Assembly: GCA_947626785.1 (NCBI GenBank)
Contig: CANQTO010000029.1
Location: forward strand, 1-34,274
DNA from: an uncultured Oscillospiraceae bacterium
Lineage (GTDB): Bacteria > Bacillota > Clostridia > Oscillospirales > Oscillospiraceae
Length of the DNA stretch: 34,274 nucleotides
Direction of reading: 5' to 3'
The position numbers and the translations under genes were made by a program. The notes under the pieces are model-generated. The model did no database searches, was not told the origin of the DNA, and saw only the letters and a list, made by a program, of their open reading frames with translations. Below, in pieces: positions 1,619 through 33,653 of this stretch. Every line of letters begins with the position of its first letter. The first letter of the stretch is position 1.

Positions 1619-1653
1619 AAAGCCCGGAAACCGCATGATTTTCGGGCTTTTTT
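1619..1653. terminator. Intrinsic terminator after queA
   Basis: An 8-bp stem AAAGCCCG (1619-1626) pairs with CGGGCTTT (1643-1650). It has six T's on the plus side and A-runs giving a short T-run on the minus side. It abuts the queA stop codon and separates queA from the HNH gene, though termination in the minus direction may be leaky. Confidence 0.65.
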
Positions 1654-9529: not shown

Positions 9530-9784
9530 CAAATGAGAAAGCCCTGAAGCACAAGGCTTCAGGGCGATAAATGACCGCGGTACCACCTGAATTCCGCCCT
9601 TACCGGGCGGCGCTCGGTGCTCTTTAACGCAGAGCCGGACGCCGGGACTACACAGCAAGCCTTCACCCCGGGCGCTCAGAGCCGACCTTCCCCGGAGCTT
9701 CACAGGGGCTTGCACCAAACGCCCCCTCTCTGACATCCGCCTGCCGGGTACTCCTGCTCTTCACAGCGCAAAACTGTATTTCGA
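9530..9784 (-). promoter_or_regulatory. T-box riboswitch leader (valine) of valS
   Basis: The minus-strand leader between the promoter and valS contains the canonical T-box TGGTACCGCG (9576-9585). It is followed by a terminator hairpin with a 10-bp stem (9541-9550 with 9556-9565) and a T-rich tail. Upstream lies a long Stem I region with CAGAGAG paired to CTCTGAG. Next to that helix sits GTC at 9684-9686, a good candidate specifier codon for valine (GUC). Uncharged tRNA-Val would pair with the specifier and the T-box bulge and stabilise the antiterminator. Family and mechanism are established; the exact specifier is my reading of the fold. Confidence 0.93.
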
Positions 9785-19998: not shown

Positions 19999-21276
19999 TT
20001 AAACCAAAGCGAGGGCCGACAGGGTCACGGCGGAGAAGATCATCCACTTGCGGAAGGTCTTCTTCCCCGTCAGCTGGGCGGCCATCCAGCACAGGCAGCC
20101 GGCAAACAGCACGCACACCAGCCAGCTGCTCTGGAAGCGCTTGGGCGTAAAGCCGAAACAGGAGATGTACAGCGCCAGCTTGGAAAAGGCGATCACCGCG
20201 AAGACCATGCTCTCCGCCAGCAGGGCGGCGCAGAGGACGTTGAAGATCTTCTTCCCGCGGGCGCTGTCGTCCGCCATCCGGGTCATCAGCCACAGTACGG
20301 CAAAATTGACAGCCATGACCCGGCACAGCTCGAAAAAGCCCTGCCGCGCGTATTGGGAGACGATAAAGCCCTCCGGCAGGGTCCTTGTAAACGCGCCGAA
20401 GAGGTAGGAGCCCTGCACGAAAAAGAACACCCCGTACAGCAGCGTGAAGGCCCCGGCCACCGCGCACCAAAAAGCGCAGGGCACCCTGCGGATCCTTTGG
20501 AGAAAGCCATAAATCCCCTCCCGCTGCCGCTCTGCAGCGGCCCCATCCAAACGGCAGGACCCGCCTATGAGACCGTACAGCCAGCAGCCTACCGGGATGC
20601 TGAGCACGACATACAGGATATTGATCGCGACGTTTTCGCTCATCTCCCAGGAGAACCAGGACAGCACGTTCTCAAGGAGCGAGCCGAAATCGCTGTCGGC
20701 GGCGGAGAGAAGCTTGGCCGCCTGGATAAACAGCATCGCGCACAGAAGGGCTGCCAGCAGGACCCAGACAAGCCGTTTTCCCTGTCCCCCGCCGCCTTTT
20801 TTCCTGGCCTTTGCGGCAAAGCGCAGAGTGCGCAGGCGGAGGAAGAAGCTGCCGAAGGGAATGCGGACAAGGCCGTTGAAGCCGTCGATAGGCAGCAGAT
20901 GCCCGCTCTCCCCCTCCAGCAGCGCCCCACTGCGGGACAGCACCCACCACACGCAGAAGCCGTGCACAAAGAGGCTGAGCTGGAATTCATCCCACACGCG
21001 GCTCAGGCCGAAGGACAGGCTGCAAACGCACACGGCAAAGCAGCCGAACCAGACCACGCTCTCCGCCGGGGCCTTTTTCCCTCGATTGAGCAGTTCCACG
21101 CAAATCAGAAGCAGCCCCGCCACCGGCAGACACAGCCATTCGCTGTTGGCGGTGAGTGCCGAGCGGATATAGAGGTAGGCGGTCACGTACATGAGCAGCG
21201 CGCAGAAAATTTCACTTTTGCCTGCCCGGAAGGGCTCTTCCGGCACAGGCACTATAGATTTATTCTGTTCATCCAT
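19999..21276 (-). CDS. DUF4153/DUF4173-like polytopic membrane protein
   Basis: A 425-aa protein with about ten to twelve hydrophobic segments and a short cytosolic N-terminus (MDEQNKSIVPVPEEPFRAGKS). The late block QYARQGFFELCRVMAVNFAVL resembles the conserved motif of DUF4173/DUF4153 membrane proteins of Firmicutes. Function is unknown. The start at 21276 is preferred because GGAGG lies 6 nt upstream within the end of the HTH gene, which it overlaps by 8 nt. It is third in a DUF2975-HTH-DUF4153/4173 operon. Confidence 0.8.
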   Translation of the reverse strand: MDEQNKSIVPVPEEPFRAGKSEIFCALLMYVTAYLYIRSALTANSEWLCLPVAGLLLICVELLNRGKKAPAESVVWFGCFAVCVCSLSFGLSRVWDEFQLSLFVHGFCVWWVLSRSGALLEGESGHLLPIDGFNGLVRIPFGSFFLRLRTLRFAAKARKKGGGGQGKRLVWVLLAALLCAMLFIQAAKLLSAADSDFGSLLENVLSWFSWEMSENVAINILYVVLSIPVGCWLYGLIGGSCRLDGAAAERQREGIYGFLQRIRRVPCAFWCAVAGAFTLLYGVFFFVQGSYLFGAFTRTLPEGFIVSQYARQGFFELCRVMAVNFAVLWLMTRMADDSARGKKIFNVLCAALLAESMVFAVIAFSKLALYISCFGFTPKRFQSSWLVCVLFAGCLCWMAAQLTGKKTFRKWMIFSAVTLSALALV

Positions 21277-21496
21277 CTTCATCCTCCTCCGGGTCGTCCC
21301 GGAACTCCAGCAGGTCCCCCGGCTGACAGCGCAGCTCATGGCAGAGGGCCATCAGCGTGGAAAAGCGGATGGCCTTCGCCTTGCCGTTTTTCAGAACGGA
21401 CAGGTTCGCTGGGGTGATCCCGATCCGCTCGGCCAGCGCTCCCGCCGAGATCTTCCGCTTGGCCATCATGACGTCGATGTTGACGATAATTTTCAT
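21269..21496 (-). CDS. Small HTH regulator (XRE/Cro type)
   Basis: A 75-aa single-domain regulator. MAKRKISAGALAERIGITPANLSVLKNGKAKAIRFSTLMALCHELRCQPGDLLEF is the compact HTH form that usually accompanies DUF2975 membrane proteins. The acidic tail EFRDDPEEDEDG overlaps the next gene's start by 8 nt. It lies between two membrane-protein genes and is probably autoregulatory; the long palindrome at 22020-22068 over the operon promoter is the best operator candidate. Confidence 0.92.
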   Translation of the reverse strand: MKIIVNIDVMMAKRKISAGALAERIGITPANLSVLKNGKAKAIRFSTLMALCHELRCQPGDLLEFRDDPEEDEDG

Positions 21497-21509
21497 AGGG
21501 CCCTCCGCG

Positions 21510-21959
21510 TCATATGGTCAGATCCAGCTCGGATTTCATCTCGATTGCCTGCTGAAACACGTTTTTCACCACCCGCACGATCAGCATCATGAAGGCGGCC
21601 GCCACGGCGACGAGGAAAAACGGCGGATAGCAGAAACCGCCGGCCAGGAAGACCAGCGCCGCGAAGGCGCAGCACCAGGAAATGATGCGCAGCAGCCGGA
21701 CATTCCCTTCGTCAAAAACCAGCTCCGCCTTCATATTTTTCAGCAGCCTCCACAGGGCCCACAGGCAGATCCAGCCGAATACGCTGGCCGCGTAGAGCGT
21801 GACGGTGATCCTCAGAACGCTCTCCGGCCTCATCCCCCGCCAGGACACATACCAGCCTATCCACCGAAAGGCGAACAGGTCCGCCGCCAGGAGGATGAGC
21901 GAGAAAGCATAGATGCAGGCGAGAGTCAGCCGGATGCTCAGTTCCTTTGTCACTTTCAT
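21510..21959 (-). CDS. DUF2975-like membrane protein
   Basis: A 149-aa protein with four hydrophobic segments (about 10-30, 45-68, 90-108, 110-130). It ends VKNVFQQAIEMKSELDLTI, a form typical of the DUF2975 family. The ATG at 21959 (MKVTKELSIRLTL) is preferred because the family starts with a short basic stretch before TM1; a GGAAAGGG about 12 nt upstream could serve as RBS. First gene of the operon, driven by the promoter at 22000-22028. Function unknown. Confidence 0.8.
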   Translation of the reverse strand: MKVTKELSIRLTLACIYAFSLILLAADLFAFRWIGWYVSWRGMRPESVLRITVTLYAASVFGWICLWALWRLLKNMKAELVFDEGNVRLLRIISWCCAFAALVFLAGGFCYPPFFLVAVAAAFMMLIVRVVKNVFQQAIEMKSELDLTI

Positions 21960-21999
21960 GATGAGCCATCGCCCTTTCCAATTGTCATGTAATGACTGT

Positions 22000-22028
22000 A
22001 TCATATCATCAAAAAAACTGAAAGTCAA
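22000..22028 (-). promoter_or_regulatory. Sigma-A promoter of the DUF2975-HTH-DUF4153/4173 operon
   Basis: On the minus strand TTGACT (22023-22028), a 17-bp spacer and TATGAT (22000-22005). The -35 box lies inside one arm of the 49-bp palindrome. Confidence 0.75.
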
Positions 22029-22068
22029 CAACTATTTATCGAATTTCGATAAATAGTTGTTGACTTTC
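22020..22068. repeat. 49-bp perfect palindrome over the -35 region
   Basis: Arms of 24 bp (22020-22043 and 22045-22068) are exact reverse complements around a single T. Each arm carries TTGACT facing outward, and one of them is the -35 of the DUF2975 operon. Possible roles: an operator for the operon's HTH protein, a cruciform or RNA hairpin, or the end of a mobile element. There is no T-run adequate for termination. Confidence 0.85.
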
Positions 22069-22314: not shown

Positions 22315-23043
22315 TCATTTGTCGCCCGCGCTGTTTATGTACTTTACATAGAGCGCCCGGGTGGAATACAGATGATCGTACACGATGCTGTTGGCGGCGA
22401 TCGGGTTATGATCCTTGAGCGCGTCAAGGATACGGGTGTGGCTTATATGGCGTATCGTATCCGGCTTACCGTCCGTGGCCAGCATAATGGCATGGATAAA
22501 GCTGTACACGATATTGCTTATCGCATTTGCGAGGATGGAGAGCATACTGTTGTGCGAAGCCTCACAGAGGAGGATATGAAAGCGGTTATCCAGGTTGACC
22601 CGCTCGGGGACAGGGAGAGTCGCGTTCCCTACGCTGAGTTCCCGGCAGATCCGCTCCATCTCCGTTAGCTCCTCTGGCGTCGCATGGATCGCCGCAAGAG
22701 CTGCCGCGTTCGTCTCGAGAATGATGCGCATTTCGATCACATCCAGCATGTCGATATTGTGGGTGCTCATGAGACGGTTGATGATGACCGAGAGATCCGC
22801 TGCTTCCGGACGTGTAATATAAGCGCCGCTGCCGACTACAGAGGAAATAAGTTTACGCTCGCTAAGGATCTTCATAGCCTCTCGAACGACTGTCCTGCTG
22901 GCAGAGTATCTGTCGCACAGGATCTGTTCAGACGGCAATTTCATGTCAGGATAACAGTTGTTGATAATATCGCTTTCAAGCGCATTGGCTACTTGCTCAT
23001 AGCGAAACTCTTTTTTCTTCTGGCCATCCTCTGTCTGGTACAT
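22315..23043 (-). CDS. GntR-family regulator, FadR/FCD subfamily
   Basis: A 242-aa regulator. It has an N-terminal winged HTH (about 14-80: LPSEQILCDRYSASRTVVREAMKILSERKLISSVVGSGAYI) and a C-terminal all-helical FCD ligand domain (about 95-225). The FCD domain has likely metal-binding residues in DNRFHILLCEASHN and HISHTRILDALKDHN. FCD regulators typically sense small organic acids such as lactate, 2-oxo acids or acyl intermediates and repress adjacent catabolic genes. RBS AAGGGGG is 10 nt before the ATG. It is separately promoted, 154 bp downstream of the aminotransferase gene on the same strand, and is the natural regulator of the divergent fermentation operon. Confidence 0.92.
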   Translation of the reverse strand: MYQTEDGQKKKEFRYEQVANALESDIINNCYPDMKLPSEQILCDRYSASRTVVREAMKILSERKLISSVVGSGAYITRPEAADLSVIINRLMSTHNIDMLDVIEMRIILETNAAALAAIHATPEELTEMERICRELSVGNATLPVPERVNLDNRFHILLCEASHNSMLSILANAISNIVYSFIHAIMLATDGKPDTIRHISHTRILDALKDHNPIAANSIVYDHLYSTRALYVKYINSAGDK

Positions 23044-23112
23044 AAACAGTCTGCCCCCTTGCGTTTGGAAGGGAGGACAGCTTTTACGCCCTTCCCTCTA
23101 TTACCATAATGT

Positions 23113-23154
23113 ATTAAACTATATTAATTTTACAACAAAAAGGCGATTTGTCAA
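23113..23154 (-). promoter_or_regulatory. Promoter and operator-like dyad of the GntR gene
   Basis: On the minus strand TTGACA (23149-23154), a 16-bp spacer and TAAAAT (23127-23132). A dyad ATTAA-N6-TTAAT (23113-23128) overlaps the -10 edge and the start site, consistent with autoregulation. Confidence 0.6.
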
Positions 23155-23197
23155 TAATTAATGCCACATAAGCTGCCCTGATATTGCTTTTTGAACT

Positions 23198-24400
23198 CTA
23201 ACGGGCGGCTGCTCCCGCCTCTTGGTAAATCGCGCGGAGCAGCGGCAGCGCTCTCTCGACCGTGCTCCGGGAGACGCAGTAAGAAAGCCTCAGCCAGCCG
23301 GGGCAGCCGAAGCCGTCCGCAGGCACAACGAGCACGTTGTATTTCTTCGCCAGCTCGGAGAATTCCATCCCGGTCATTCCAAAGGGAGCCTGGAAGAAGA
23401 GATAGAAAGCGCCTCTGGGTTCAGCGAATCTGTAGCCGATGTCCTTAAATTCCTTCAACAGCAGATCCCGGTTATAGGCGTAATCAGCGATGTTAGGCTT
23501 TACGTCCACGCAGCGCTCAATGACCTTTTGAAACAGCGTCGGCATACACACATTGGCGACTATGCCCGCGCCTCCCTTAAGCGCTGTCCACACATCTTTA
23601 AAATCGTCTATATCGTTGTCTGTCATGATATAGCCTACCCGCTCTCCGGCCAGGGAAAGGGACTTGCTGTAGGAATAGCAGACGATGGTGTTGCGATAAT
23701 AGGCCGGAATATAGGGCACAGTCTCCTCCGTATAGACCAGTTCGCGGTATGGTTCGTCGCAGATGATATAGACGGCGTGTCCAAATTCCCGGCTTTTCCG
23801 TTCCAGCAGTTCTGCCAAGCGCTTTATGGTCGCCTCATTATAGATCGTCCCGGACGGGTTGTTCGGAGAATTGATGATGACGGCCTGTGTGTTTGCGTTG
23901 ATAGCCCTCTCCAGCGCCTCAAACTCGATTTGGAAATGCTCGGTATCGGGAGGCACCACGACCATTTTGTTCCCGCCGCACTGAATAGCCGCCCTATAAC
24001 CGGGAAAGTAGGGCGCGATCACGATTATTTCGCTGTCAGGCGACAGATTGAGCGCCACGCTGATGATATGCAGGCCAGTACTCGCCCCCGTGACCAACAT
24101 GAAATTATCTTTTGTGAGCGATCTGTTGAAACGCCTGTTGCAGGATTCGGCAATGGCCTGGCGGCAGCTGTCCATCCCGATATTGCTCGAATAGCCGTGT
24201 ACACTCACAGGGTCCTCTGTTTGGATGATGTCCAAAATGGCACGGTCGACCTCCGGAGGAGGGGGTGTGCTGGGATTGCCCAGGCTGAAATCAAACACGT
24301 TTTCACGGCCGATTTTGGCCGCCTGCACAGCTGCGTATTCAGAGAGCTCCCGGATCGGAGACCGCTTGCCTCCTGAAGCCAGCAGAGTCGGTGATACCAT
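23198..24400 (-). CDS. PLP-dependent aminotransferase, class I/II
   Basis: A 400-aa fold-type I aminotransferase that moves an amino group between an amino acid and a 2-oxoacid. Landmarks are FDFSLGNPSTPPPPEV at the N-terminus, TGASTGLHIISVAL, the NSPNNPSGTIY block, CDEPYRELVY (PLP-ring Asp), SYSKSLSLAGERVGY with the Schiff-base lysine (K246), and a C-terminal substrate Arg in WLRLSYCVS. Fold and reaction are secure; the amino acid is not. GGAGG lies 11 nt upstream of the ATG. Its place between an FCD regulator and a 2-oxoacid oxidation operon suggests it makes the 2-oxoacid for that pathway. Confidence 0.93.
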   Translation of the reverse strand: MVSPTLLASGGKRSPIRELSEYAAVQAAKIGRENVFDFSLGNPSTPPPPEVDRAILDIIQTEDPVSVHGYSSNIGMDSCRQAIAESCNRRFNRSLTKDNFMLVTGASTGLHIISVALNLSPDSEIIVIAPYFPGYRAAIQCGGNKMVVVPPDTEHFQIEFEALERAINANTQAVIINSPNNPSGTIYNEATIKRLAELLERKSREFGHAVYIICDEPYRELVYTEETVPYIPAYYRNTIVCYSYSKSLSLAGERVGYIMTDNDIDDFKDVWTALKGGAGIVANVCMPTLFQKVIERCVDVKPNIADYAYNRDLLLKEFKDIGYRFAEPRGAFYLFFQAPFGMTGMEFSELAKKYNVLVVPADGFGCPGWLRLSYCVSRSTVERALPLLRAIYQEAGAAAR

Positions 24401-24644
24401 ACGTTCTCAAGCCTCCTGTTCAAAATAATATATCTATGTATCAGCCGGCCGGGAAGAACGCGGCCAGACCTGTACCCTACAGAGCCTCATTCGTCTTCGC
24501 GCATACGAGGATGCCTGGGCGCGAAGCTTCTTGATTTTGTGTGTAAAGAACCAAATCAATGCCCGGAGCAGCCTCGGCGGTACTTCGCCGAAGCAAGACA
24601 ATATGAAGCTTTTTCATCGGCTTTGCTTGTCTCTTCGTTCACAG

Positions 24645-24660
24645 TGGCAGATTTTTTGCG
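24645..24660 (+). promoter_or_regulatory. Sigma-54-like -24/-12 element
   Basis: TGGCAG (24645-24650) and TTGCG (24656-24660) keep the diagnostic 10-bp distance between GG and GC. Branched-chain acid catabolic operons with a butyrate-kinase gene are sigma-54-dependent in Bacillus. Here there is no enhancer-binding-protein gene in the window and the leader would be about 360 nt, so chance remains likely. Confidence 0.3.
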
Positions 24661-24693
24661 TGTTTGGATCTTAAAGACCACAACAGGTATGCA

Positions 24694-24713
24694 AAATTTG
24701 TATGCGAAATTAT
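24694..24713. promoter_or_regulatory. Operator-like dyad, copy 1
   Basis: AAATTTGTATG-N2-AAATTAT contains the dyad AATTT-N7-AAATT. It overlaps a minus-strand TATAAT (24709-24714). It recurs 264 bp downstream and resembles the AT-rich, GTAT-centred sites of FCD-type GntR regulators. Confidence 0.45.
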
Positions 24714-24957
24714 AGCTATATCAAGCAAATAATCACATAAAGCACACAACTTTATGCTATCTTTGTAATACATTTAAGCATATTCCTGGAAAATAGTCAA
24801 TAGGTCAAAGCGTCTATTCTTCCCGAGAAAAATTGTGCAAATCAGACATATTTTGCCGGACAAGCGGCCGTTTTAGACATAATACTGAAATTTTACTTCA
24901 AAATTTGTGCGTTCTGCTGAAACGGAGGGATTCCCGCAGAAAAGGCTTGAAATGGGT

Positions 24958-24977
24958 AAATTTGTATGATAAATTAT
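24958..24977. promoter_or_regulatory. Operator-like dyad, copy 2
   Basis: Identical to copy 1 at 18 of 20 positions, again AATTT-N7-AAATT, 57 bp before the transporter ATG. A half-similar AAATTTGTGCG lies at 24901-24911. Two matching sites at both ends of the divergent region fit looping or coordinate repression by the FCD regulator. Confidence 0.45.
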
Positions 24978-25033
24978 GCTTAAGCTGTAATATAAATTTT
25001 TTCAAAAGTAAATACAAAAAAGGAGGTATCTCA

Positions 25034-26485
25034 ATGGATCAGCAAGCAAAACGTTCCCGGACACCGTGGTTGACAGCTTTCTGTGTGGGCAATGTCGGTT
25101 ACGACATGATGTATGAGTTCTACAAAAACTTTGAGAACTTTTTCCTCACAGAGATCTGCCGCTTCAGCACCGGGGCAACGGCGGCTATCGCGACAACGAT
25201 AAACGCCATCAAAGTCTTCCTTACCCCCGCGGTCGGCGTGATCGTCGATAAGGATCCCTTCAAAGCGCGAGACAAGTATACTCCCTGGATCGTCGGTATG
25301 CCTGTGTTCCTGGGCCTGGCCTTTATCCTGATGGCCCTGGGCGCATGGGTAGCCGGCGGCGGCACCGTGTTCGTGATCGCTATGTATGTTGTGTTCCAGC
25401 TTTTTGCTCCGTTCCTGCAAAACGGCTATCGCAGCGCGATCTCGTCCATTGCCATGAACTCAAACGAGGCGAGCTTTTTAGCGGGCGGCGTCAACACCGG
25501 GCAGTCCGCCGGCCGTCTGCTCACCGGTGTTATAGCCCCCGTGGTCATGGTCAAGCTCTCCGTTGACGGTGTAAACGAGGATGCTCGGGGCTTCTTCTGG
25601 GCAACAGTCGTCAGCGTCGTCATCGCTGTTTTGTGCTACTGGCTGGCGGCGCTCGCCCTGCGAAAGACCATCCGCCCGGACCGCGTGCGCAGCGCCAAAT
25701 CCGTTGCCGGTGAGATCAAGGACTCTGCCAAGGCCAGCGCCATGTCGGTCGGCGATATTCTGAAGCAGACCTTCACCGACAAGAACATCCTTATCCCCTT
25801 CGCGATCGGGGTCCTGGTGATTTTCCGTACCTTCATCGTCGCGCCGACGGCTCCCTACTATTACAGCTACGTTGTCGGCAACATGATGGAGTACGCCGTA
25901 TTCTCCAGTGCAACCAACATTGCCGGTATTATTGGTGTTATCGCTGGACCTTTGGTACTGGTAAAGATCGCAAAGAACAACCTGAGAGGCACGCTCATGT
26001 CCTTTGTTGGCCTGATGATCGTCTGCCATCTGAGCCTTCTGGTGGTCGGAGCGAACAAAAACGGCTTCCTGATCTCCATGACCATTTGCAACTTCTTCTA
26101 TCAGTGCGCTACGGTGCTGCTGTTCACTGCTTTTGTCAACGGCGTCGACGCCGCCGAGCTGCGCCGCAGGAAGGCCGGTAAGCACGACGTGGCTTCCGGC
26201 ACCGCCATGAGCCTTCACTGGACCGCCGTTATGGTCGCCCAGGTGCTGGGTGTTTTCATCCGCAATATCGGCCTGAGCGCCGCTGGTTATGTGGGCGCCG
26301 ACACTGTGGCATCCGCCGCCCTCACCAACGGTCTGATCAAAATGTACTGCTGGGTCCCCATTATCTTCCTCGCCCTCGCGTTTGTGTCGATCCTGTTCTA
26401 CGATCTCACTCCCGCCAAGATGGCGGCGATCCATGCCGAGCTGGATCCCATGCGTGCGGCCGACGCGGCTAACGCTGAGAAGTGA
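25034..26485 (+). CDS. GPH/MFS-type cation:solute symporter
   Basis: A 483-aa inner-membrane transporter with about twelve hydrophobic segments. It is of the MFS_2 / glycoside-pentoside-hexuronide:cation symporter type: N-terminal VGNVGYDMMYEFYKNFENFFLTE, then the VGVIVDKDPFKARDKYTPWI loop after TM2. The GPH family also carries organic acids and other solutes, so the substrate may be an acid or amino acid rather than a sugar. The start at 25034 has a perfect AAGGAGG; a longer in-frame ORF from 24833 is rejected for lack of an RBS and odd composition. First gene of the fermentation operon. Confidence 0.85.
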   Translation: MDQQAKRSRTPWLTAFCVGNVGYDMMYEFYKNFENFFLTEICRFSTGATAAIATTINAIKVFLTPAVGVIVDKDPFKARDKYTPWIVGMPVFLGLAFILMALGAWVAGGGTVFVIAMYVVFQLFAPFLQNGYRSAISSIAMNSNEASFLAGGVNTGQSAGRLLTGVIAPVVMVKLSVDGVNEDARGFFWATVVSVVIAVLCYWLAALALRKTIRPDRVRSAKSVAGEIKDSAKASAMSVGDILKQTFTDKNILIPFAIGVLVIFRTFIVAPTAPYYYSYVVGNMMEYAVFSSATNIAGIIGVIAGPLVLVKIAKNNLRGTLMSFVGLMIVCHLSLLVVGANKNGFLISMTICNFFYQCATVLLFTAFVNGVDAAELRRRKAGKHDVASGTAMSLHWTAVMVAQVLGVFIRNIGLSAAGYVGADTVASAALTNGLIKMYCWVPIIFLALAFVSILFYDLTPAKMAAIHAELDPMRAADAANAEK

Positions 26486-26530
26486 TGGTCATCCCGTAGA
26501 AATCAATTAAAACGATAGGAGCTGAGATAA

Positions 26531-27481
26531 ATGAAAATCGGTATTATCGGCGCCGGCAGAATGGGAAGCCTCGTAGCCGGAAACGCGACAGCCGGAGGGG
26601 CTGAGTGCTTCTTGATCGATCCCTGGAAAGAGCACGTCGACGTCATAAACAGCAAGGGCCTCACGATCTACAACAACGAGGAGGAGCCGTATGTGACCCA
26701 TTGCAAGGCTTTCACCTCTGCCGGTCAGATCGGGCAGATCATGGATCTGTTGGTCGTTCTGGTCATGGGGCAGCACACGCGGACCGCTCTTCAGGCCGCC
26801 ATGTGTCTAGCCGACGAGCATACGTACTGCCTGACACTTCAAAACGGTATGGGAAACGTGGAGGTGATCGAGGAGTTTTTCCCGAAGGAGCGGGTGCTCT
26901 ACGGCATCATGCCTTACGGCGGGACGGTTCTGGCCCCAGGCGTCGTCAAGACGCTGACCACTCCGGGCGACAAGTCCCACTTTGGCTGCGCGGGAGTGGA
27001 GGAGCCGAACGAATTCATGGAGGAGTTCGCCGCCGCTATGCGCAGCAGGGGCCTTGAGTTCTTTGCAGAAAACCGGTCAGATGTAGACAGCGCCGTCTGG
27101 TATAAGATGGCTATAAACTGTTCCGGAAACCCCGTGTGCGCCGTTACGCGCCTTGCTCTCGGCCCATACACGCACAGCTCTGCTACCGCGCCGATCGAAG
27201 TCGCGCTGTTTATGGAGGTCGCGACAGTGGCAAAGGTCAAGGGCGTGAATATCGACAACTGGTCCTGGCATACTGGCCGGAAGCTGCCTAAGGAGTCGAA
27301 GATGTTCTGGCATTTGCCCTCCACCGCGCAGGATGTGAAGGCCAAGAGAAAAACCGAGATCGAATTTCTCAACGGCGCTATCGCGAGAATGGGCGATGAG
27401 CTGGGCATCCCCACGCCATACAATCACATGATCACCGCCCTTGTGAAAATTGTGGAAGAGAACTACGACAATCAGTTTTAA
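26531..27481 (+). CDS. Ketopantoate reductase-family (ApbA/PanE) 2-oxoacid reductase
   Basis: A 316-aa NAD(P)H-dependent reductase. It has the N-terminal Rossmann motif GIIGAGRMGSLVAG and a mid block TLQNGMGN. The catalytic lysine lies in WYKMAINCSGNPVCAVTRL, and the C-terminal helical domain has KRKTEIEFLNGAIARMGDELGIPTPYN. PanE itself makes pantoate from ketopantoate, but the family includes D-2-hydroxyisocaproate/isovalerate dehydrogenases that reduce branched 2-oxoacids. No panB or panC lies nearby, while the next genes oxidise 2-oxoacids. The likeliest role here is therefore a 2-oxoacid/2-hydroxyacid reductase acting as electron sink (or as entry for 2-hydroxyacids). RBS AGGAG, 9 nt upstream. 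Confidence 0.88.
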   Translation: MKIGIIGAGRMGSLVAGNATAGGAECFLIDPWKEHVDVINSKGLTIYNNEEEPYVTHCKAFTSAGQIGQIMDLLVVLVMGQHTRTALQAAMCLADEHTYCLTLQNGMGNVEVIEEFFPKERVLYGIMPYGGTVLAPGVVKTLTTPGDKSHFGCAGVEEPNEFMEEFAAAMRSRGLEFFAENRSDVDSAVWYKMAINCSGNPVCAVTRLALGPYTHSSATAPIEVALFMEVATVAKVKGVNIDNWSWHTGRKLPKESKMFWHLPSTAQDVKAKRKTEIEFLNGAIARMGDELGIPTPYNHMITALVKIVEENYDNQF

Positions 27482-27498
27482 GCAATCCGGAGGAGTAT

Positions 27499-27705
27499 AT
27501 GAGCAAGAAAATTATCATTAACACAGCGGTCTGCAAGGGCTGCGGGTACTGTGTAGCAGCCTGCCCAAAGAAGGCTTTGTCCATGAGCGCCGACTTCAAT
27601 CCCGCCGGCTACCACTTTACGGTCGTGGATGAAAAGGCCTGTATCGGATGCGGCACGTGCTACACAGTCTGCCCAGATTACGTCTATTCGGTCGTGGAGG
27701 AATAA
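27499..27705 (+). CDS. 2-oxoacid:ferredoxin oxidoreductase, delta (ferredoxin) subunit
   Basis: A 68-aa 2[4Fe-4S] ferredoxin with CKGCGYCVAACP (about 12-23) and CIGCGTCYTVCP (about 48-59). It relays electrons from the TPP-bound intermediate in the alpha/beta subunits to free ferredoxin. Small size and position directly before the alpha gene match the delta subunit of four-subunit VOR/KOR enzymes. GGAGGAG lies upstream. Its last codons contain the RBS of the next gene. Confidence 0.94.
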   Translation: MSKKIIINTAVCKGCGYCVAACPKKALSMSADFNPAGYHFTVVDEKACIGCGTCYTVCPDYVYSVVEE

Positions 27706-27709
27706 AAGC

Positions 27710-28783
27710 ATGGCAAAAGAATTGTTAAAGGGAAATGTGGCGGCGGCCGAGGCCGCTCTGCGCGGCGGCTGCGACTTTTTCGCCGGATATCCGATCACGC
27801 CGTCCACCGAGACGCTGGAGTACCTCTCTCACAGAATGCCGGAGTTGGGTATGAAGGAGCGGTTCATCCAGTCGGAAAACGAGATCGCGGCGATCAACAT
27901 GGTCATGGGCGCGGCTTCGGCAGGCGCCCGGGCGATGACCGCTTCTTCCGGCCCGGGCATAAGCCTTAAAGCGGAAGGAATGTCCTACGCGGCCCACTAC
28001 AGCATCCCCTTCGTCCTGCTCAACGTACAGCGCTGGGGCACCGGCCTTGGCAGCCTCAAATCCGGCCAGGCGGACTATTTCCGCGAGTGCAAGGGCGGCG
28101 GACACGGCGATTATCACAACATCGTATATGCCCCCTTCAACATTCAGGAGATGGTGGACGATATGTATGAGGCCTGGGATGTGGCCGAGAAGTACAGAGT
28201 AGGGGTTACGATGTTCTCCGAAGCGGTCCTGGGGCAGATGATGGAGGCCGTGGAAATGCCACCCTTCAAGAAGCGTGAGAAGGAGCTGGACTGGGGTGTG
28301 GACGGCACCGGCACGAAGGGCATGAAGTACCCCACCGGAGACGGCTGGGATTACGTGGAGTTTGAGCTGGAGAAGTATAACCGCATCATTGACGAAATGC
28401 AGCGTTGGGAATTCTACAATGTCGAGGACGCGGACTACATCTTCACCGCTGTCGGACTGCCGGCCCGGGCTTGTCTGGATGTTATCGCCAAGCTCAGAGC
28501 CCGCGGTGAGAAGGTCGGCATGCTACGCCCCAAGATCATCTGGCCGTTCCCCTTCCTGGGTTTTGAGGAATTGCACCGGGTCAATCCTCATGTCAAAGGC
28601 TTTATATCGGTAGAGATGAACGACATGGGACAGATGGTCGACGACGTCGCGCTGGCCGCCAAGAAAGCTGGATTTAACGTGCCTGTATATTGCTACCCCT
28701 GCGGCGGCGGCGTTCCTCAGGTGAAGGCGATCATCGCGAAATACCAGGATATTCTGGACGGTGTTTTAAAGGAGAAGTACTAA
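27710..28783 (+). CDS. vorB: 2-oxoacid:ferredoxin oxidoreductase, alpha subunit (VorB-like)
   Basis: A 357-aa subunit carrying the pyrimidine-binding (PFOR N-terminal) domain and transketolase C-terminal domain. FAGYPITPSTE near the start and SSGPGISLKAEGMSYA are family landmarks. The block LKSGQADYFRECKGGGHGDYH resembles VorB of 2-oxoisovalerate oxidoreductases more than KorA of 2-oxoglutarate enzymes. The usual RGGPGLG is altered to RWGTGLG, a change next to the substrate/TPP region that may reflect substrate choice. Start at 27710 follows GGAGG; the longer ORF in this frame overlaps the ferredoxin gene. Together with beta, gamma and delta it oxidatively decarboxylates a 2-oxoacid to acyl-CoA, CO2 and reduced ferredoxin. 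Confidence 0.92.
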   Translation: MAKELLKGNVAAAEAALRGGCDFFAGYPITPSTETLEYLSHRMPELGMKERFIQSENEIAAINMVMGAASAGARAMTASSGPGISLKAEGMSYAAHYSIPFVLLNVQRWGTGLGSLKSGQADYFRECKGGGHGDYHNIVYAPFNIQEMVDDMYEAWDVAEKYRVGVTMFSEAVLGQMMEAVEMPPFKKREKELDWGVDGTGTKGMKYPTGDGWDYVEFELEKYNRIIDEMQRWEFYNVEDADYIFTAVGLPARACLDVIAKLRARGEKVGMLRPKIIWPFPFLGFEELHRVNPHVKGFISVEMNDMGQMVDDVALAAKKAGFNVPVYCYPCGGGVPQVKAIIAKYQDILDGVLKEKY

Positions 28784-29520
28784 TGACGATCATAAAAAAG
28801 ATCCCTGATAAACTTGGGCAGCACGCTCTCTGCGCGGGCTGCGGTCACGGTATAGTCATCCGGCTGATCCAGGAGGTCCTGCAGGAGCTCGGTCAGGCAG
28901 ATAACCAGATTGCCGTTGTCGGCGTCGGCTGTATATGCACCGCCACCTCAGCTTTAAAGGTCGACCGTTTCCAGGCGGCCCACGGCAGGGCCTGCGCTAC
29001 TGCGGAGGGAATCAAGCGCGTAAGGCCCAATGTTGTTGTCTATACTTATCAGGGCGACGGCGACGCCTACACCATCGGCATCGCCGAGAGCCTTAATGCG
29101 GCTTACCGGAACGAAAATATTACCATGATTTCGATCAATAATACGAACTTCGGCATGACCGGCGGCCAGATGAGCTGGACAACGCTTCCCGGCCAAAAGA
29201 CCGAGACAAGTGTAAACGGCCGTGACTGCGAGCTTACCGGACTCCCCTTCCATTTTCCGGAGATGGTGGCAAATTCTCAGGGCTTCCATGTGGCTTACGC
29301 GGCACGCGGCACGGTGAACGACGTCAAGAGTATCAACCAGACAAAGAGGATGATCCGCAACGCTTTTGAAGCGCAACTGAACGGAGAAGGCTTCTCTGTG
29401 GTCGAGGTGCTGACGGCCTGCCCCACCAACTGGCATATGACGCCACAGCAGTGCCAGGAGCGCATCTCCACATCTGTTGAGTCTGAGTATCCGGTCGGCG
29501 AGTTTAAAAAGAGAGGCTGA
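28783..29520 (+). CDS. 2-oxoacid:ferredoxin oxidoreductase, beta (TPP-binding) subunit
   Basis: A 245-aa subunit with the TPP motif GDGDAYTIGIAE followed by NNTNFGMTGGQMSWTT, and Cys ligands for a [4Fe-4S] cluster (CAGC at about 17-20, GVGCICTA, and TACPTNW near residue 210). It binds thiamine diphosphate and carries out decarboxylation with the alpha subunit. Its ATG overlaps the alpha stop by one base (TAATG) with AAAGGAG upstream, so synthesis is coupled. Confidence 0.94.
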   Translation: MTIIKKIPDKLGQHALCAGCGHGIVIRLIQEVLQELGQADNQIAVVGVGCICTATSALKVDRFQAAHGRACATAEGIKRVRPNVVVYTYQGDGDAYTIGIAESLNAAYRNENITMISINNTNFGMTGGQMSWTTLPGQKTETSVNGRDCELTGLPFHFPEMVANSQGFHVAYAARGTVNDVKSINQTKRMIRNAFEAQLNGEGFSVVEVLTACPTNWHMTPQQCQERISTSVESEYPVGEFKKRG

Positions 29521-29532
29521 GGAGGAGAAGCG

Positions 29533-30078
29533 ATGAAAGAGATCATATTTGCCGGCTTCGGCGGACAGGGCGTTTTGACAGGCGGGCTGATCATTGCCTA
29601 CACAGCCTCCAATCTGGGTCTTGAAACGGTGTGGCTTCCCTCTTACGGCCCCACGATGCGCGGTGGGAAAGCCAATTGCACCGTGAAGTTCGGGGAAAAG
29701 CCGGGCGAGGCTATCGGCAGCCCTTCCATGGAGGAAGCGGATATTCTGATCGCCATGAACGAGCCGTCCCTTGACTACTTGGAGTTCTGCAAGAAAGACT
29801 GCGCCGTGTTCGTAAACGCCAACGCGGTGCCCGAGAGCCACGTATATCCCGAAGGCGTGGACGTCACCCGGATCGATGTTGTGGAGCTGGCCAACGAGGT
29901 CGGCAACGTCAAAGGGCAAAACCTCGTGATGCTCGGCGCCGTAATTAAGAAAATGGGACTTTTCAGCGAGAAGGAAGCTGAAGAGGCCATGTGCAAGATG
30001 TTCGAGGAAAAAGGAAAGGGAGCCTTCAATTCCGCAAATGTTGCCGCCATGAGAAAGGGTTTTGAGGCCGTCTCTTAA
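29533..30078 (+). CDS. 2-oxoacid:ferredoxin oxidoreductase, gamma subunit
   Basis: A 181-aa protein of the pyruvate/ketoisovalerate oxidoreductase gamma family. It has the N-terminal IIFAGFGGQGVLTGG, the YGPTMRGGKANCTVKF block and C-terminal ANEVGNVKGQNLVMLGA. It provides the CoA-side domain of the heterotetramer. GAGGAGG precedes the ATG. It completes the set in the order delta-alpha-beta-gamma, and is followed by a structured 165-bp gap. Confidence 0.95.
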   Translation: MKEIIFAGFGGQGVLTGGLIIAYTASNLGLETVWLPSYGPTMRGGKANCTVKFGEKPGEAIGSPSMEEADILIAMNEPSLDYLEFCKKDCAVFVNANAVPESHVYPEGVDVTRIDVVELANEVGNVKGQNLVMLGAVIKKMGLFSEKEAEEAMCKMFEEKGKGAFNSANVAAMRKGFEAVS

Positions 30079-30092
30079 AGAGTTTGAAAGAT

Positions 30093-30184
30093 GCCTATGA
30101 CTGCCTGTGAACGCGGACAGTCATAGGCGTAAGGTGACGGGAGCCGGACCCGCGTCACTTCACAGGGGTCAGACTCCCGCCGTC
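30093..30184 (+). other. Structured intergenic segment with competing hairpins
   Basis: The gap between the gamma subunit and the symporter has an 11-bp perfect stem (30093-30103 with 30118-30128). Two mutually exclusive hairpins follow: GTGACG/CGTCAC (30134-30139 with 30153-30158) and CGGGAG..GACCC with GGGTC..CTCCCG (30138-30151 with 30166-30179). No T-run follows. It may be an mRNA processing or stabilising element setting different levels of enzyme and transporter, a regulatory leader, or a REP-like repeat. Confidence 0.5.
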
Positions 30185-30243
30185 TGAATAATGGCACTTG
30201 GTTGATGAATTTCTGGAACGGACATCTGCGGCAAGGTGAAAGT

Positions 30244-31638
30244 ATGAAAATTGCTTTTTTCTGTATCATTATCCCGTTGATTCTTCTCTCGTTTCTGATG
30301 TCAAAGAAGAACCGGGCGGCAGGTCGAGATTTCTTTGTTCCGAAATCCGGACTGCCCTATGTCGTAGTAGCCCTTACGATGGCCGCCTCGCAGTTTGGAA
30401 GCAGTATGCTCATCGGCGGCGTCCAGCAGGCGCATCAGCAGTCGATCGGGCAGGGCTTTTGGCCGGCAATATACACGCTGCTGGCCGCCTCTGCCTCGTG
30501 CTTTTTGAACATTCTCATAGCTCCCCGTTTCAAGCAGTTCGGGGATTCGGTCACTCCGCCAGATTTTATTGAGATCCGCTACGGCAGGAGCCGTTTTATG
30601 CGCTCTTACCACAGCATCGTCTACATCTGCTCCGTATCGGCAGTTCTTGTCTCGCAATTTGTCGGCTTTGCCGCCATGGGCGTCGTAGCCGGTTTTTCCT
30701 ACAAGTTTTCCATCATACTCTGTGCCTTTGTCGTCCTGCTGCTGTCTCTCGGTTCTGGGATGAGGGGCGTGGCCTGGACGGACGCTATCCAGTATATATT
30801 TATCGCGCTCCTGCTGCTTTTCAGTATTCCCTTTTCTGTGAAAGCTCTCGGTATGGGCGGGTTCCGCGTAGCGGACTTGCTACATGAGGAGTTCTTCCCC
30901 ACTCCGGAGCTAAAGGACAAGTTTCTCTACACCTTCATGCCGGTGCTGATCGGGAACATGTTCAATTATGAGTACTTCATGCGGTTTATGTCCTGCAAGG
31001 ATATGAGGGAGGCAAAATGGGCTTCCGGAACGGCGGGTGTCGTGCTTCTTGTCACGGCGCTTCCCATCGCGCTTTTGGGTTCAGTCGCCAACTATTTCTT
31101 CCAGGGGGCGGACAGCGCGGAAGTGTTCAGCCTGATCCTGAACGCTTATATGCCAAAGCCGATGGTCGTGCTGATGATGCTCGCGGTGCTTATGGCTGTC
31201 CTCACTTCGGCGGATACCATGCTCATATCTCTCTCCAGCATGGTCTCCAAGGATCTGTACGCCGGGGTCCTGTGCCGGAACAGGCCGGTCACAGAGCTGA
31301 AGTATTTCAACCGCATAGCCAAGCTGTCGATCGTCTTCTTTGCCCTGGTAGCCACGATATTCGCCCTCTATTTTGATGAGATACTCAAAATATCGTTTTT
31401 CTTCTCCCCCTTGACGAGCGGTGTGATGTTCGCCCCGATGATCGTCGGCCTGCTGTGGAAGGGCGCTTCAAGAACAGGCGCCGTCTGTGCGATCTGCGTC
31501 AGCGCCGTCCTCGCCGTTTTCTATCTCACCGGCGTCGTCACTGTGCTTGACCGGGTCACTGGCCCGGCCTTGGCGGGCACTATCAGCATCGTTGTTTTCA
31601 GCTGGCTTTTTCCAAACAAGGAACTGAAGAAGGAGTGA
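30244..31638 (+). CDS. Sodium:solute symporter (SSS family)
   Basis: A 464-aa inner-membrane protein with about twelve to thirteen hydrophobic segments. The family's Na+-site helix is seen in LTSADTMLISLSSMVSKDLY (about 333-352), along with FVPKSGLPYVVVALTMAASQFGSSMLIGG in the TM2 region and an early DFIEIRYG loop. SSS carriers import organic acids, amino acids, sugars or vitamins with Na+. In this operon, uptake of a carboxylate or amino-acid substrate is most likely. ATG at 30244 has AAGGTG upstream; the longer ORF from 30202 lacks an RBS. Its end carries the RBS of the next gene. Confidence 0.9.
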   Translation: MKIAFFCIIIPLILLSFLMSKKNRAAGRDFFVPKSGLPYVVVALTMAASQFGSSMLIGGVQQAHQQSIGQGFWPAIYTLLAASASCFLNILIAPRFKQFGDSVTPPDFIEIRYGRSRFMRSYHSIVYICSVSAVLVSQFVGFAAMGVVAGFSYKFSIILCAFVVLLLSLGSGMRGVAWTDAIQYIFIALLLLFSIPFSVKALGMGGFRVADLLHEEFFPTPELKDKFLYTFMPVLIGNMFNYEYFMRFMSCKDMREAKWASGTAGVVLLVTALPIALLGSVANYFFQGADSAEVFSLILNAYMPKPMVVLMMLAVLMAVLTSADTMLISLSSMVSKDLYAGVLCRNRPVTELKYFNRIAKLSIVFFALVATIFALYFDEILKISFFFSPLTSGVMFAPMIVGLLWKGASRTGAVCAICVSAVLAVFYLTGVVTVLDRVTGPALAGTISIVVFSWLFPNKELKKE

Positions 31639-31642
31639 TCTG

Positions 31643-31966
31643 ATGAAATACGCCTATTATGCCATCGTTGTCGCCGCCTTCGTCGCTCTGACATATTTTT
31701 CCTATATCCGTCCTCACAACCAGGCCACTCTCAAAAAGTTTCGCAACAACGAGCGACTGAAGACCGGAGACAGGATCATCACCATCGGGGGCTTCTACGC
31801 GACGATCTGTGAAAAGAACGAAGTGGACTATATTATCGCCCTGGAGCCGGATGGTGTGCGAATGCGTATCAGCCCCGAAGCTATAGCGGTGTACCCGGAG
31901 GATATACAGCGCTCCATCGACGCCCAAAAGGAACAGGCGAAAAAACTTGAAAAATACGGACAGTGA
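31643..31966 (+). CDS. YajC-like small membrane protein in the fermentation operon
   Basis: A 107-aa protein with one N-terminal TM helix (about 3-20), a YIRPHNQ turn and then a cytosolic beta-rich domain (LKTGDRIITIGGFYATICEKNEVDYIIALEPDGVRMRISPEAI). This is the pattern of the preprotein-translocase accessory protein YajC. The usual YajC gene sits by secD/secF or tgt; here it begins 4 nt after the symporter stop and is followed by a kinase gene. It is probably a paralogue recruited as a transporter accessory subunit, or simply misplaced. Similarity is clear in layout but I cannot score it. Confidence 0.75.
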   Translation: MKYAYYAIVVAAFVALTYFSYIRPHNQATLKKFRNNERLKTGDRIITIGGFYATICEKNEVDYIIALEPDGVRMRISPEAIAVYPEDIQRSIDAQKEQAKKLEKYGQ

Positions 31967-31992
31967 TGCCCATGAAATATATGAGGTAGCAA

Positions 31993-33075
31993 ATGAAAGA
32001 TAAGTATGTTATTTTATGTATCAACCCCGGTTCGACGAGCACCAAGCTGGCGCTTTTTGAGAACGAAGAAAAGCGCAGTGAGCAAAATCTGGAACATCCG
32101 AGCGAGGAAATCGCGAAATACCCCGATATCATCAGCCAGCTCCCCATGCGTAAGACAGCCATCGACCGCTATATCGAGCAGCAGGGCATTCGGCCTGACC
32201 AGATCGACGCCATCGCTGTCCGTGGCTGTCCGGCCGGGAAGCGTTATCACGCCGGCGCTTACGCGGTAGACGGAGACATGGTGAACGAGTGTCTCAAGCC
32301 GGTGAACGCCGTGCATCCGATGTGCCTGGCACCCATCATCGCCTACGAATGGGTCAAAGAATATGGGATCCCAGCCTACTGCTACGATGTGGTCATGACG
32401 GATGAGATGGATGACGTGGCCAAGATGACGAGCCTGCCCTGGATCAAGAGAAATCCGTCCATGCATATGCTCAATACCCGCGCGGTCGCGACCGAGGTGG
32501 CGGAGAGCATGGGCAAGAGCTATGATGAGGTGAACTTTATTATGTGTCATCTGGGCGGCGGATGCAGCGTCAGTATGCATAAGCACGGCCGGGTGATCGA
32601 TATGGTCCCCTCTGGCGAAGGGACATTTACCCCCTCTCGGGCAGGCTCCTTCTCTAACTATGAGATGATCCGGCTCTGCTTTTCCGGCAAATACACGGCG
32701 CAGTCCCTGCGGGAGCTTTTCCAGGATCACAGCGGGATCGTGGCATATCTGAACACCAGTGACTGCCGTGAGGTGGAAAAAATGATTGCCGCCGGCAACG
32801 AGACGGCCAAGCTGGTCTACGAGGCCTTTGCCTACAATCTGGCAAAGGACATCGGCACCATGGCCGTCACTACCAGCGGACAGGTGGATCGGATCGTACT
32901 GACCGGCGGCATCGCCTACTCCGAAATGCTTACCGGCATGGTCGCAGAGCGGGTCCGCTTCATAGCGCCCGTTGTCGTGCGGCCAGGCGCGATCGAGATG
33001 GAAGCCCTTGACAGAGGGATCCTTCGGGTGCTGCGCGGTGAAGAATCCGCACGGAAATTCTCCGACGAATACTAA
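31993..33075 (+). CDS. buk: Butyrate kinase / branched-chain fatty acid kinase
   Basis: A 360-aa ASKHA-fold kinase of the acetate/butyrate kinase family. It has N-terminal INPGSTSTKLALF (phosphate-binding loop 1), MCHLGGGCSV, SGEGTFTPSRAGSF and the adenosine-site VLTGGIAYSEM. The SGEG and PxRAG-type block is characteristic of butyrate and isobutyrate kinases rather than acetate kinase. It converts an acyl phosphate and ADP to the free acid and ATP, the energy-yielding last step of the operon's oxidative branch. GAGGT lies upstream. No ptb gene is present; PduL fills that position. Confidence 0.93.
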   Translation: MKDKYVILCINPGSTSTKLALFENEEKRSEQNLEHPSEEIAKYPDIISQLPMRKTAIDRYIEQQGIRPDQIDAIAVRGCPAGKRYHAGAYAVDGDMVNECLKPVNAVHPMCLAPIIAYEWVKEYGIPAYCYDVVMTDEMDDVAKMTSLPWIKRNPSMHMLNTRAVATEVAESMGKSYDEVNFIMCHLGGGCSVSMHKHGRVIDMVPSGEGTFTPSRAGSFSNYEMIRLCFSGKYTAQSLRELFQDHSGIVAYLNTSDCREVEKMIAAGNETAKLVYEAFAYNLAKDIGTMAVTTSGQVDRIVLTGGIAYSEMLTGMVAERVRFIAPVVVRPGAIEMEALDRGILRVLRGEESARKFSDEY

Positions 33076-33092
33076 ACAGGGGGGACAGAATA

Positions 33093-33653
33093 ATGAAAAC
33101 GATGGTAATGCTCTCAAATCACCATGTTCATCTCACAAAAGAAGCCTGTGACATCCTGTTCGGCGAGGAAGGCATCACCTTCCACCACTATCTCGCCGAA
33201 GAGAACGGTCCCTGGGCATCCAATGAATTTGTCGATGTGGGCGGCCCGAAGGGGACGATCAGTCATCTGCGGGTCCTTGGTCCCCTGCGCGGCTATACCC
33301 AGTGTGAGCTTCTTAGAACCGACTGCTTCAAGCTGGGCGTTGATCCGCCGGTCAGAAATTCCGGGAAGCTGGAGGGCGCTGCTGAGCTGACGCTGTACGG
33401 GCCGAAGGGCGAGCTTACTGTCCCCTGCGGCATTCTGGCCTGGAGGCACATTCATATCGACAGAGAGACTCTGGCTGAAATCGGCAAAAGCTTTGGCGAT
33501 TTTGTTCAGGTGAGAACCGAAGGTGACCGCGCGCTTGTCTTTGAAAAGGTCGCCCTTGTCCCCGGCGGGAAGGGTCTGCTGATGCACGTGGACACGGAAG
33601 AAGGCAATGCCGCAGGATGTGCTAACGGCGATATGCTTGAAGTGATCATTTAA
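33093..33653 (+). CDS. pduL: PduL-type phosphate acyltransferase
   Basis: A 186-aa zinc-dependent phosphotransacylase of the PduL family, exchanging CoA and phosphate on an acyl group. The zinc-site histidines are visible in SNHHVHLT near the N-terminus and WRHIHIDRE in the middle. PVRNSGKLEGAAELTLYGPKG and MHVDTEEGNAAG are the other family blocks. There is no N-terminal encapsulation extension (the protein starts at the first beta strand) and no microcompartment shell gene in the window, so it is a cytosolic form. The sequence deviates from typical PduL (HHVH for RHVH). It replaces phosphotransbutyrylase as partner of the butyrate-type kinase. GGGGGG precedes the ATG. Last gene of the operon. 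Confidence 0.9.
   Translation: MKTMVMLSNHHVHLTKEACDILFGEEGITFHHYLAEENGPWASNEFVDVGGPKGTISHLRVLGPLRGYTQCELLRTDCFKLGVDPPVRNSGKLEGAAELTLYGPKGELTVPCGILAWRHIHIDRETLAEIGKSFGDFVQVRTEGDRALVFEKVALVPGGKGLLMHVDTEEGNAAGCANGDMLEVII

Follow-up and report, generated by a model that had tools for sequence, protein, structure and literature searches.

A predicted 2-oxoacid fermentation island that pairs a PduL-type phosphotransacylase with a butyrate-family kinase in an uncultured Oscillospiraceae bacterium

The window analysed here is a 34,274-nucleotide stretch of DNA from an uncultured Oscillospiraceae bacterium (assembly GCA_947626785.1, contig CANQTO010000029.1). Its positions 22,315 to 33,653 hold a gene island that we consider likely to be a catabolic set, probably acquired horizontally, that ferments a few related 2-oxoacids for ATP. 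At its core, a PduL-type phosphotransacylase (PF06130) stands beside a butyrate-kinase-family (Buk) acyl kinase, where a Ptb-type enzyme (PF01515) might be expected. Searches with Pfam and NCBIfam profiles, together with a listing of short open reading frames (ORFs), located every gene family named in an initial annotation of the window at the coordinates and in the order given there (Table 1). Gene families for the full set of functions that it had claimed are present: transport, transamination, hydroxyacid dehydrogenation, oxidative decarboxylation, phosphotransacylation and ATP formation.

We propose the following pathway, in which each reaction and its direction are read from the enzymology of the family. 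The 2-oxoacid would come from transamination of an imported amino acid and/or from NAD(P)-linked interconversion with a 2-hydroxyacid by the PanE-family protein. The four-subunit oxidoreductase would convert it to acyl-CoA and CO2 while reducing ferredoxin, PduL would exchange CoA for phosphate on the acyl group, and the Buk-family kinase would yield ATP and a free acid one carbon shorter. The PanE-family protein might serve redox balance, with a second 2-oxoacid as the acceptor that is reduced to a hydroxyacid, or might feed hydroxyacids in. The middle step of ATP-forming amino-acid oxidation in anaerobes is usually sought as Ptb. If our reading is true, a metal enzyme unrelated to Ptb would explain acid production in genomes without Ptb, the range of PduL would extend past acetyl-, propionyl- and (as proposed) lactyl-CoA, and a few residues would serve as predictive markers for such PduLs.

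PduL beside a butyrate-family kinase

The island kinase passes the TIGR02707 equivalog cut-off (Table 1) and matches the solved "Probable butyrate kinase 2" (1x9j/1saz) at 300 bits. PduL matches the solved enzyme 5cuo at 124 bits and keeps seven of the seven metal and phosphate residues of the R. palustris enzyme, which has a two-zinc site (H48, H50, E109 / H157, H159, H204) and a phosphate-binding Arg103 (PMC4784909). We took the residue list from that paper and set the numbering offset by motif. A home-made profile, built from 40 PTA/PTB matches plus the Pta of the island's own genome, detected no Ptb homologue in the window, and the pairing of Buk with PduL instead of Ptb, as initially annotated, was borne out.

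The own genome (2.75 Mb, 98 contigs, 99% complete) yielded one PduL and one Buk-type kinase, both in the island. Elsewhere it has one strong PTA_PTB match (C55, 363 bits), a weak one (23.7 bits; 25.8 bits with frame neighbours) and one full-length AckA-like kinase (519 bits); five POR_N proteins were found, the island's included. Shell proteins of bacterial microcompartments (BMCs; PF00936) gave no match in this genome, while E. coli and Synechococcus controls matched, and PduL carries no N-terminal encapsulation extension, with only seven residues preceding its SNHH motif. A stray microcompartment gene is ruled out on these two grounds, and the earlier placement of this PduL outside a microcompartment holds for its own genome.

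The arrangement recurs. The initial annotation had named conservation of gene order as a check, and a PduL peptide-pattern scan of the genomes of named species, which reaches close relatives only, found the order largely kept in two isolates, placed in Anaerovoracaceae and Clostridiaceae by tree labels. In Bacilliculturomica massiliensis the order is VorDBAC-Buk-PduL-aminotransferase, at 69-81% identity, with the aminotransferase homologue (69%) directly downstream of PduL. In Lactonifactor longoviformis the cluster likewise opens with an FCD regulator (25% identical), followed by GPH-PanE-VorDBAC-SSS-Buk-PduL at 44-71% identity, the SSS homologue (44%) standing at the same place. A diverged version occurs in G025, a genome of the island's own family, as VorDBAC-membrane protein-Buk-D-2-hydroxyacid dehydrogenase (PF02826, 188 bits)-PduL-MFS (locus L127), with a different hydroxyacid dehydrogenase family in the place of PanE; its 438-aa ORF (L127 3904-5220), a membrane protein by eye, had no Pfam or NCBIfam match. 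Because the island's order largely recurs in other genomes, it is more than chance. In the stretches examined the supply of 2-oxoacid differs, with an aminotransferase in Bacilliculturomica, PanE in Lactonifactor, both in the window and the other hydroxyacid dehydrogenase in G025; such variation fits a hub fed from amino acids or hydroxyacids.

Shell genes are present elsewhere in the Bacilliculturomica and Lactonifactor genomes (C21 1.50-1.51 Mb and C30 30-37 kb), whose PduL clusters occupy 1.84-1.86 Mb and 0.32-0.34 Mb of the respective contigs (contig numbers unmatched to accessions). The absence of shell proteins therefore holds for the own genome and not for the whole clade. The Lactonifactor locus has two further features. 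The kinase directly before PduL (L067 8206-9954) carries, in the same frame, a hydrolase of the metallo-beta-lactamase fold (PF00753, 109 bits) at its N-terminus. A separate Ptb-Buk pair of the ordinary kind (L067 14065-17440), preceded by a gene of the aldehyde dehydrogenase family (PF00171, 110 bits), lies downstream of PduL at a distance of about 3.5-7 kb, and this genome thus retains both phosphotransacylase types.

We then counted partners of Buk and PduL more widely. Buk usually has Ptb as its neighbour: in a sample of 58 Buk loci (29 from a class sample and 29 from the own family, own excluded; best matches only; flanks of at most 1.5 kb), 38 had a Ptb homologue, two had PduL and 18 had neither. 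Six of these 18 were viewed more widely: at L143, L146, L148 and L149 Ptb lies at a greater distance, in the order Ptb-IorA-IorB-Buk(-aminotransferase), and no Ptb was seen on this wider view at L150 or at L151, the latter a 3.8-kb contig. Among 200 genomes of the own family, PduL occurred in 87, Buk (E<=1e-40) in 63 and both in 39. The two genes were neighbours on one strand in nine (G000, which is the own genome, G025, G038, G040, G088, G129, G159, G166 and G190) against a rough chance expectation of 0.1, at a spacing of 20 to 1041 nt by match coordinates (coordinate lists compared by hand). In seven of the nine, no VOR homologue accompanies the Buk-PduL pair in the stretch examined (L128-L134: G129, G190, G040, G166, G038, G088 and G159). 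A FAD oxidoreductase homologue (PF12831) follows the pair in five of the seven (L128-L132; in L129 partly, at a contig end) and not in L133 or L134; in L133, genes of an oligopeptide-type ABC transporter lie downstream. One other neighbouring pair, in G221, appeared among the matches listed for a class sample of 391 genomes, and we rejected it as a PduL-Buk case since a Ptb homologue sits between the two genes (L135). The pairing, described as unusual in the initial annotation, is indeed uncommon but not unique, given the nine family genomes and a proposal for Moorella (PMC11328732).

Residues, phylogeny and known relatives of the island PduL

We compared the clade of VOR-linked PduLs with 61 other PduL rows, two of which are second copies of the same place; in this region of the alignment, the window clade has no gaps and G025 lacks one residue. 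Six changes at sites more than 70% conserved are common to the four clade members: R/K47H, L66T, K70Y, L72A, Q/E77P and S111L. Lys70 is among the CoA-binding residues, and position 77 has been proposed to affect acyl preference, being Tyr or Phe in most pvm-locus enzymes thought to use lactyl-CoA and Gln or Glu in acetyl/propionyl types (PMC4784909). At position 77, the other 61 rows have Q (55), E (5) or Y (1), and all seven Buk-linked PduLs without VOR have Q. The four clade members have P and G025 has I; hence, Gln/Glu is gone in all five VOR-linked PduLs found. By this correlation, the change at position 77 may be the best sequence sign that VOR-linked PduLs act on a different acyl group.

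The PduL tree unites the four closest VOR-linked PduLs at 100/99, adds that of G025 to them at 99/97 and sets the seven other Buk-linked PduLs in a separate clade (100/100). The Buk tree sets the kinases of the island, Bacilliculturomica and Lactonifactor apart (path 0.33-0.49 within, 1.69 to the next) and also gives the VOR-less kind clades of its own. PduL-paired kinases require three label changes on it, one of them forced. The PduL tree suggests that PduL and Buk came together at least twice, which the Buk tree does not force. We see even chances that these clusters hold PduLs of a new functional type: dimetal enzymes specialised for branched or aryl acyl-CoA that replaced Ptb in oxidative amino-acid fermentation outside microcompartments, uncounted by PF01515-based surveys and marked by residue 77 together with 47 and 70.

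Several known systems resemble the island in part. In C. scatologenes, HpdDEFG-HpdJ-HpdK combines an oxidoreductase of the VOR cluster, a Ptb homologue and a Buk homologue to form ATP and an acid; its tyrosine oxidation was reconstituted in vitro and is reversible, and similar trio clusters are reported to occur widely among anaerobic Firmicutes (PMC13285125, 2026). The island resembles this trio in its four-subunit D+E+F+G oxidoreductase, its predicted route from acyl-CoA through acyl phosphate to acid and ATP, its Buk-family kinase and its transaminase entry. Unlike the trio, it has a dimetal PduL (PF06130) and not a PTA_PTB enzyme (PF01515), and it adds the PanE, GPH and SSS genes. With no PF01515 member, the island is thus a variant of the Hpd-type trio and not a strict member. 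A survey of Peptostreptococcales neighbourhoods counted PF01515 plus PF00871, or an acyl-CoA ligase (PMC13285125), and would miss the island by this definition, since PF06130 stands in the middle.

The Ptb-Buk-VOR/IOR clusters of Clostridia, exemplified by loci L145 and L143 and by the C. sporogenes VOR CLOSPO_00146-00149 (PMC13290082), are similar in that their Buk proteins, among the matches listed, are 42-47% identical to the island's and that L143 and L145 each have an adjacent aminotransferase; the island differs by PduL instead of Ptb and by a Buk that groups apart. In Moorella, PduL occurs with AckA outside microcompartment loci, and one isolate with four PduL copies and one Buk has been proposed to make butyrate by PduL plus Buk (PMC11328732). 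In some acetogens, pduL or ptb/buk has been suggested to replace pta (PMC5039349). The island PduL would share with these a fermentation role, and with the Moorella isolate the proposed partnership with Buk. Unlike acetogen PduL, with its acetyl or proposed butyryl role, it belongs to a predicted operon of 2-oxoacid:ferredoxin oxidoreductase, Buk and PduL, which is not described in the available text of these two papers (PMC11328732, PMC5039349). BMC-associated PduL (5cuo, PMC4784909) has the same fold family and all of the metal and phosphate residues, and the island enzyme differs from it in the lack of shell genes in its own genome, the lack of an N-terminal extension and the substitutions Gln/Glu77Pro, Lys70Tyr and Arg47His. 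We found no description of a PduL-for-Ptb variant of the trio in the open-licence literature, nor a phosphate propanoyltransferase linked there with isobutyrate.

Origin, substrates and direction

Composition and distribution indicate that the island was probably acquired horizontally. Its GC content is 54.2%, against a mean of 63.2% in 60 two-kb pieces from six other contigs, and no 11.3-kb stretch of the sampled contigs falls under 60.3%. PduL was found in one of 101 genus genomes, the own one; 34 of the 101 reach a completeness of 90% or more with contamination of 5% or less. The left-flank genes (19999-22031) are kept at ~81% DNA identity in two genus members that lack the island, G653 and G605; similarity ends at 21979 in G653, where the contig stretch starts 340 bases away, and at 22043 in G605. 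None of the six genus stretches compared yielded the right-flank gene, and hence the insertion site is not defined. The pathway may travel between families as an island. A separate observation is a hairpin with a 20-bp stem (22021-22067), which came from a scan for terminator-like sites on the minus strand, overlaps a promoter-like site at 22028-22000 and sits where composition shifts and the similarity to G605 stops.

A number of observations weigh against the preferred reading. Close relatives are few: the peptide-pattern scan gave four loci, of which one, on the contig of a Clostridiaceae metagenome-assembled genome (L066), begins inside Buk before running into PduL, and another has a PduL (L068, 45%) outside such a cluster. 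The PduL tree carries a flag for meeting long branches at the join of G025 and the window clade. In the Buk tree, the kinase of G025 falls outside the group of the window kinase, so the two PduL-Buk-VOR assemblies are not shown as one inherited unit. Position 70 is altered also in the seven Buk-linked PduLs without VOR, and 11 of the 61 other rows have L at 111; neither change is specific, which makes those at 77 and 47 the more telling. A second VOR-type operon, truncated at a contig end, occurs in the own genome (contig C11, L152) and may offer another such route. Low GC is not confined to the island: window positions 1-2000 have 47%, and of the 60 two-kb pieces from other contigs one has 56% or less. 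Lastly, a 165-nt gap before the SSS gene may divide the operon.

The initial annotation was right in outline and over-specific on branched chains. The island has a D+E+F+G-type four-subunit oxidoreductase of the PF01855 family. Its alpha subunit scores 361.5 bits with the VorB model (PRK07119, NF005507), under the curated cut-off of 399, and is 52% identical over its full length to that of L145 and 50-63% identical over parts in other Ptb-Buk-VOR/IOR loci. Branched alkyl and aryl groups are the leading candidates for the acyl group. A branched-chain substrate is a guess, and aromatic or hydroxyacid substrates fit about equally.

The PanE-family protein is probably a 2-hydroxyacid dehydrogenase by its relatives. 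Its best solved matches are 8wl3 (118 bits), 2ew2 (116 bits) and 3wfi (100 bits), the last of which we take to be D-mandelate dehydrogenase, with 37 bits to 1ks9, presumably E. coli PanE. It does not look like a biosynthetic ketopantoate reductase: no equivalog model passes, only the subfamily model TIGR00745 does, and the protein is far from 1ks9. Pantothenate catabolism through PanE and SSS was considered and rejected: the PutP and PanF models score far under cut-off, and the island has no other fitting enzyme gene.

Aromatic substrates (phenylpyruvate, hydroxyphenylpyruvate or their lactates), oxidised to arylacetates in place of branched-chain products, are a serious possibility that we hold tentatively. 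The PRK06836 family of the island's aminotransferase occurs also in the Ptb-IOR-type-Buk cluster of L143, and the PanE-family protein has the presumed D-mandelate dehydrogenase 3wfi among its relatives. Two VOR-like enzymes of Blautia hydrogenotrophica, a gut bacterium, preferred aromatic 2-oxoacids when assayed (PMC13290082). HpdE lies in the VOR cluster of an enzyme network, and in C. difficile the kinase beside Cd3b and the ligase beside Cd3c, two oxidoreductases of this cluster, act on phenylacetate/hydroxyphenylacetate (PMC13285125). A title cited by PMC4580590 names a family that unites D-mandelate dehydrogenases with ketopantoate reductases. However, VorB is the best NCBIfam model of the alpha subunit, even if under cut-off, the subunits are unfused, unlike those of IOR, and in C. 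difficile the preferred acids of the kinase next to Cd3a are propionate, isobutyrate and isovalerate (PMC13285125).

Similarly tentative is the view that the main substrate is an imported 2-hydroxyacid, oxidised by the PanE-family protein, with the aminotransferase as an auxiliary. In Lactonifactor the cluster contains PanE, and 20 kb of sequence showed no aminotransferase homologue, so the oxidising direction fits as well as the production of hydroxyacids by reduction, which the initial annotation had over-read; in G025, a D-2-hydroxyacid dehydrogenase lies between Buk and PduL. Bacilliculturomica shows the opposite, an aminotransferase with no PanE homologue in 20 kb.

A reversed pathway is improbable. 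Anaerobes carboxylate branched acids, and here the kinase and PduL would activate branched or aryl acids for reductive carboxylation and transamination to amino acids. Each step of the reconstituted trio is thermodynamically reversible (PMC13285125), but the presence of two transporters, an FCD regulator at the locus and a hydroxyacid dehydrogenase suggests catabolism, and the island is accessory within the genus. Least probable by far is a chance adjacency of PduL and Buk serving separate pathways: 30 of the 39 family genomes with both genes do not have them as neighbours, yet the nine same-strand pairs far exceed expectation and the order is largely kept in other families.

Gene layout and regulation

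The genes of the preferred reading, a fermentation of 2-oxoacids to ATP and free acids, are listed in Table 1. The starts of the GPH, VorB, VorA and SSS genes fit Shine-Dalgarno sequences, and the ATG of VorA overlaps the stop codon of VorB. Intergenic gaps from GPH to VorC are 45, 17, 4, -1 and 12 nt, and those in SSS-YajC-Buk-PduL are 4, 26 and 17 nt; the 165 nt between VorC and SSS are the sole gap over 45 nt between GPH and PduL. Because the gaps are short apart from this one, the genes from GPH to PduL would form one or two transcription units. The 165-nt gap contains two inverted repeats (30093-30179; 11/11 and 12/14 pairs), and the terminator scan listed no terminator-like site in it.

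Table 1. Features of the island, with family assignments from profile searches
Feature	Coordinates	Strand	Details
GntR/FCD transcriptional regulator	22315..23043	-	242 aa; PF07729 81.5 bits, PF00392 51 bits
Pyridoxal phosphate aminotransferase, PRK06836 family	23198..24400	-	400 aa; Aminotran_1_2; NF005305 457.7 bits, cut-off 376
Candidate operator box 1	24694..24713	+	20-nt direct repeat, 90% identical to box 2
Candidate operator box 2	24958..24977	+	overlaps -10 of promoter-like site 24947-24975
GPH/MFS_2 transporter	25034..26485	+	PF13347 139.7 bits; Shine-Dalgarno GGAGG at start
PanE/ApbA-family dehydrogenase	26531..27481	+	316 aa; TIGR00745 174 bits, cut-off 141
VorD, delta subunit, 2x[4Fe-4S] ferredoxin	27499..27705	+	68 aa; visible only in short-ORF listing
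VorB, alpha subunit of 2-oxoacid:ferredoxin oxidoreductase	27710..28783	+	PF01855 (POR_N) 152 bits, PF17147 61 bits
VorA, beta (thiamine pyrophosphate) subunit	28783..29520	+	PF02775 65 bits; TIGR02177 111 bits, below cut-off 262
VorC, gamma subunit	29533..30078	+	PF01558 (POR) 115 bits
SSS-family sodium/solute symporter	30244..31638	+	PF00474 (SSF) 75.5 bits
YajC-like small membrane protein	31643..31966	+	107 aa; PF02699 49 bits (cut-off 28); TIGR00739 37 (below 44)
Butyrate-kinase-family acyl kinase	31993..33075	+	TIGR02707 386.9 bits, cut-off 289.1; PF00871 83 bits
PduL-type phosphotransacylase (PTAC)	33093..33653	+	PF06130 163 bits, cut-off 25

The opposite strand carries the genes for the FCD regulator and the aminotransferase, and the divergent intergenic region spans 633 nt. 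The regulator would probably control divergent promoters, and two near-identical boxes in this region are candidate operators, the only sign found for the one regulated locus of the initial annotation. The zero chance expectation computed for the box is circular, because the search pattern was derived from those two copies; the box had no match across 163 comparison loci. An operator consensus for the FCD class, TNGTNNNACNA, had no match in the window, against three expected by chance.

Four smaller observations concern individual genes. The YajC-domain protein begins 4 nt after the SSS symporter and could be a small transporter subunit rather than a translocase protein; no homologue was detected in the Bacilliculturomica or Lactonifactor cluster. 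Two VOR-type operons, in G025 and the second one of the own genome, are each preceded by an ORF (L127 7885-8562 and L152 2584-3321; 225-245 aa) in which a P-loop-like motif was noted by eye, and neither ORF had a Pfam match. At 9557-9773 on the minus strand, a T-box leader (Rfam RF00230, 114 bits) overlaps the 5' end, as listed, of an ORF of 949 aa on the same strand, the true start of which is probably further downstream. Upstream of the island, a 909-aa protein (17205-19934) has Fer4_20, Pyr_redox_2 and 4Fe-4S domains, and we take it to be a glutamate-synthase-small-subunit-like flavoprotein.

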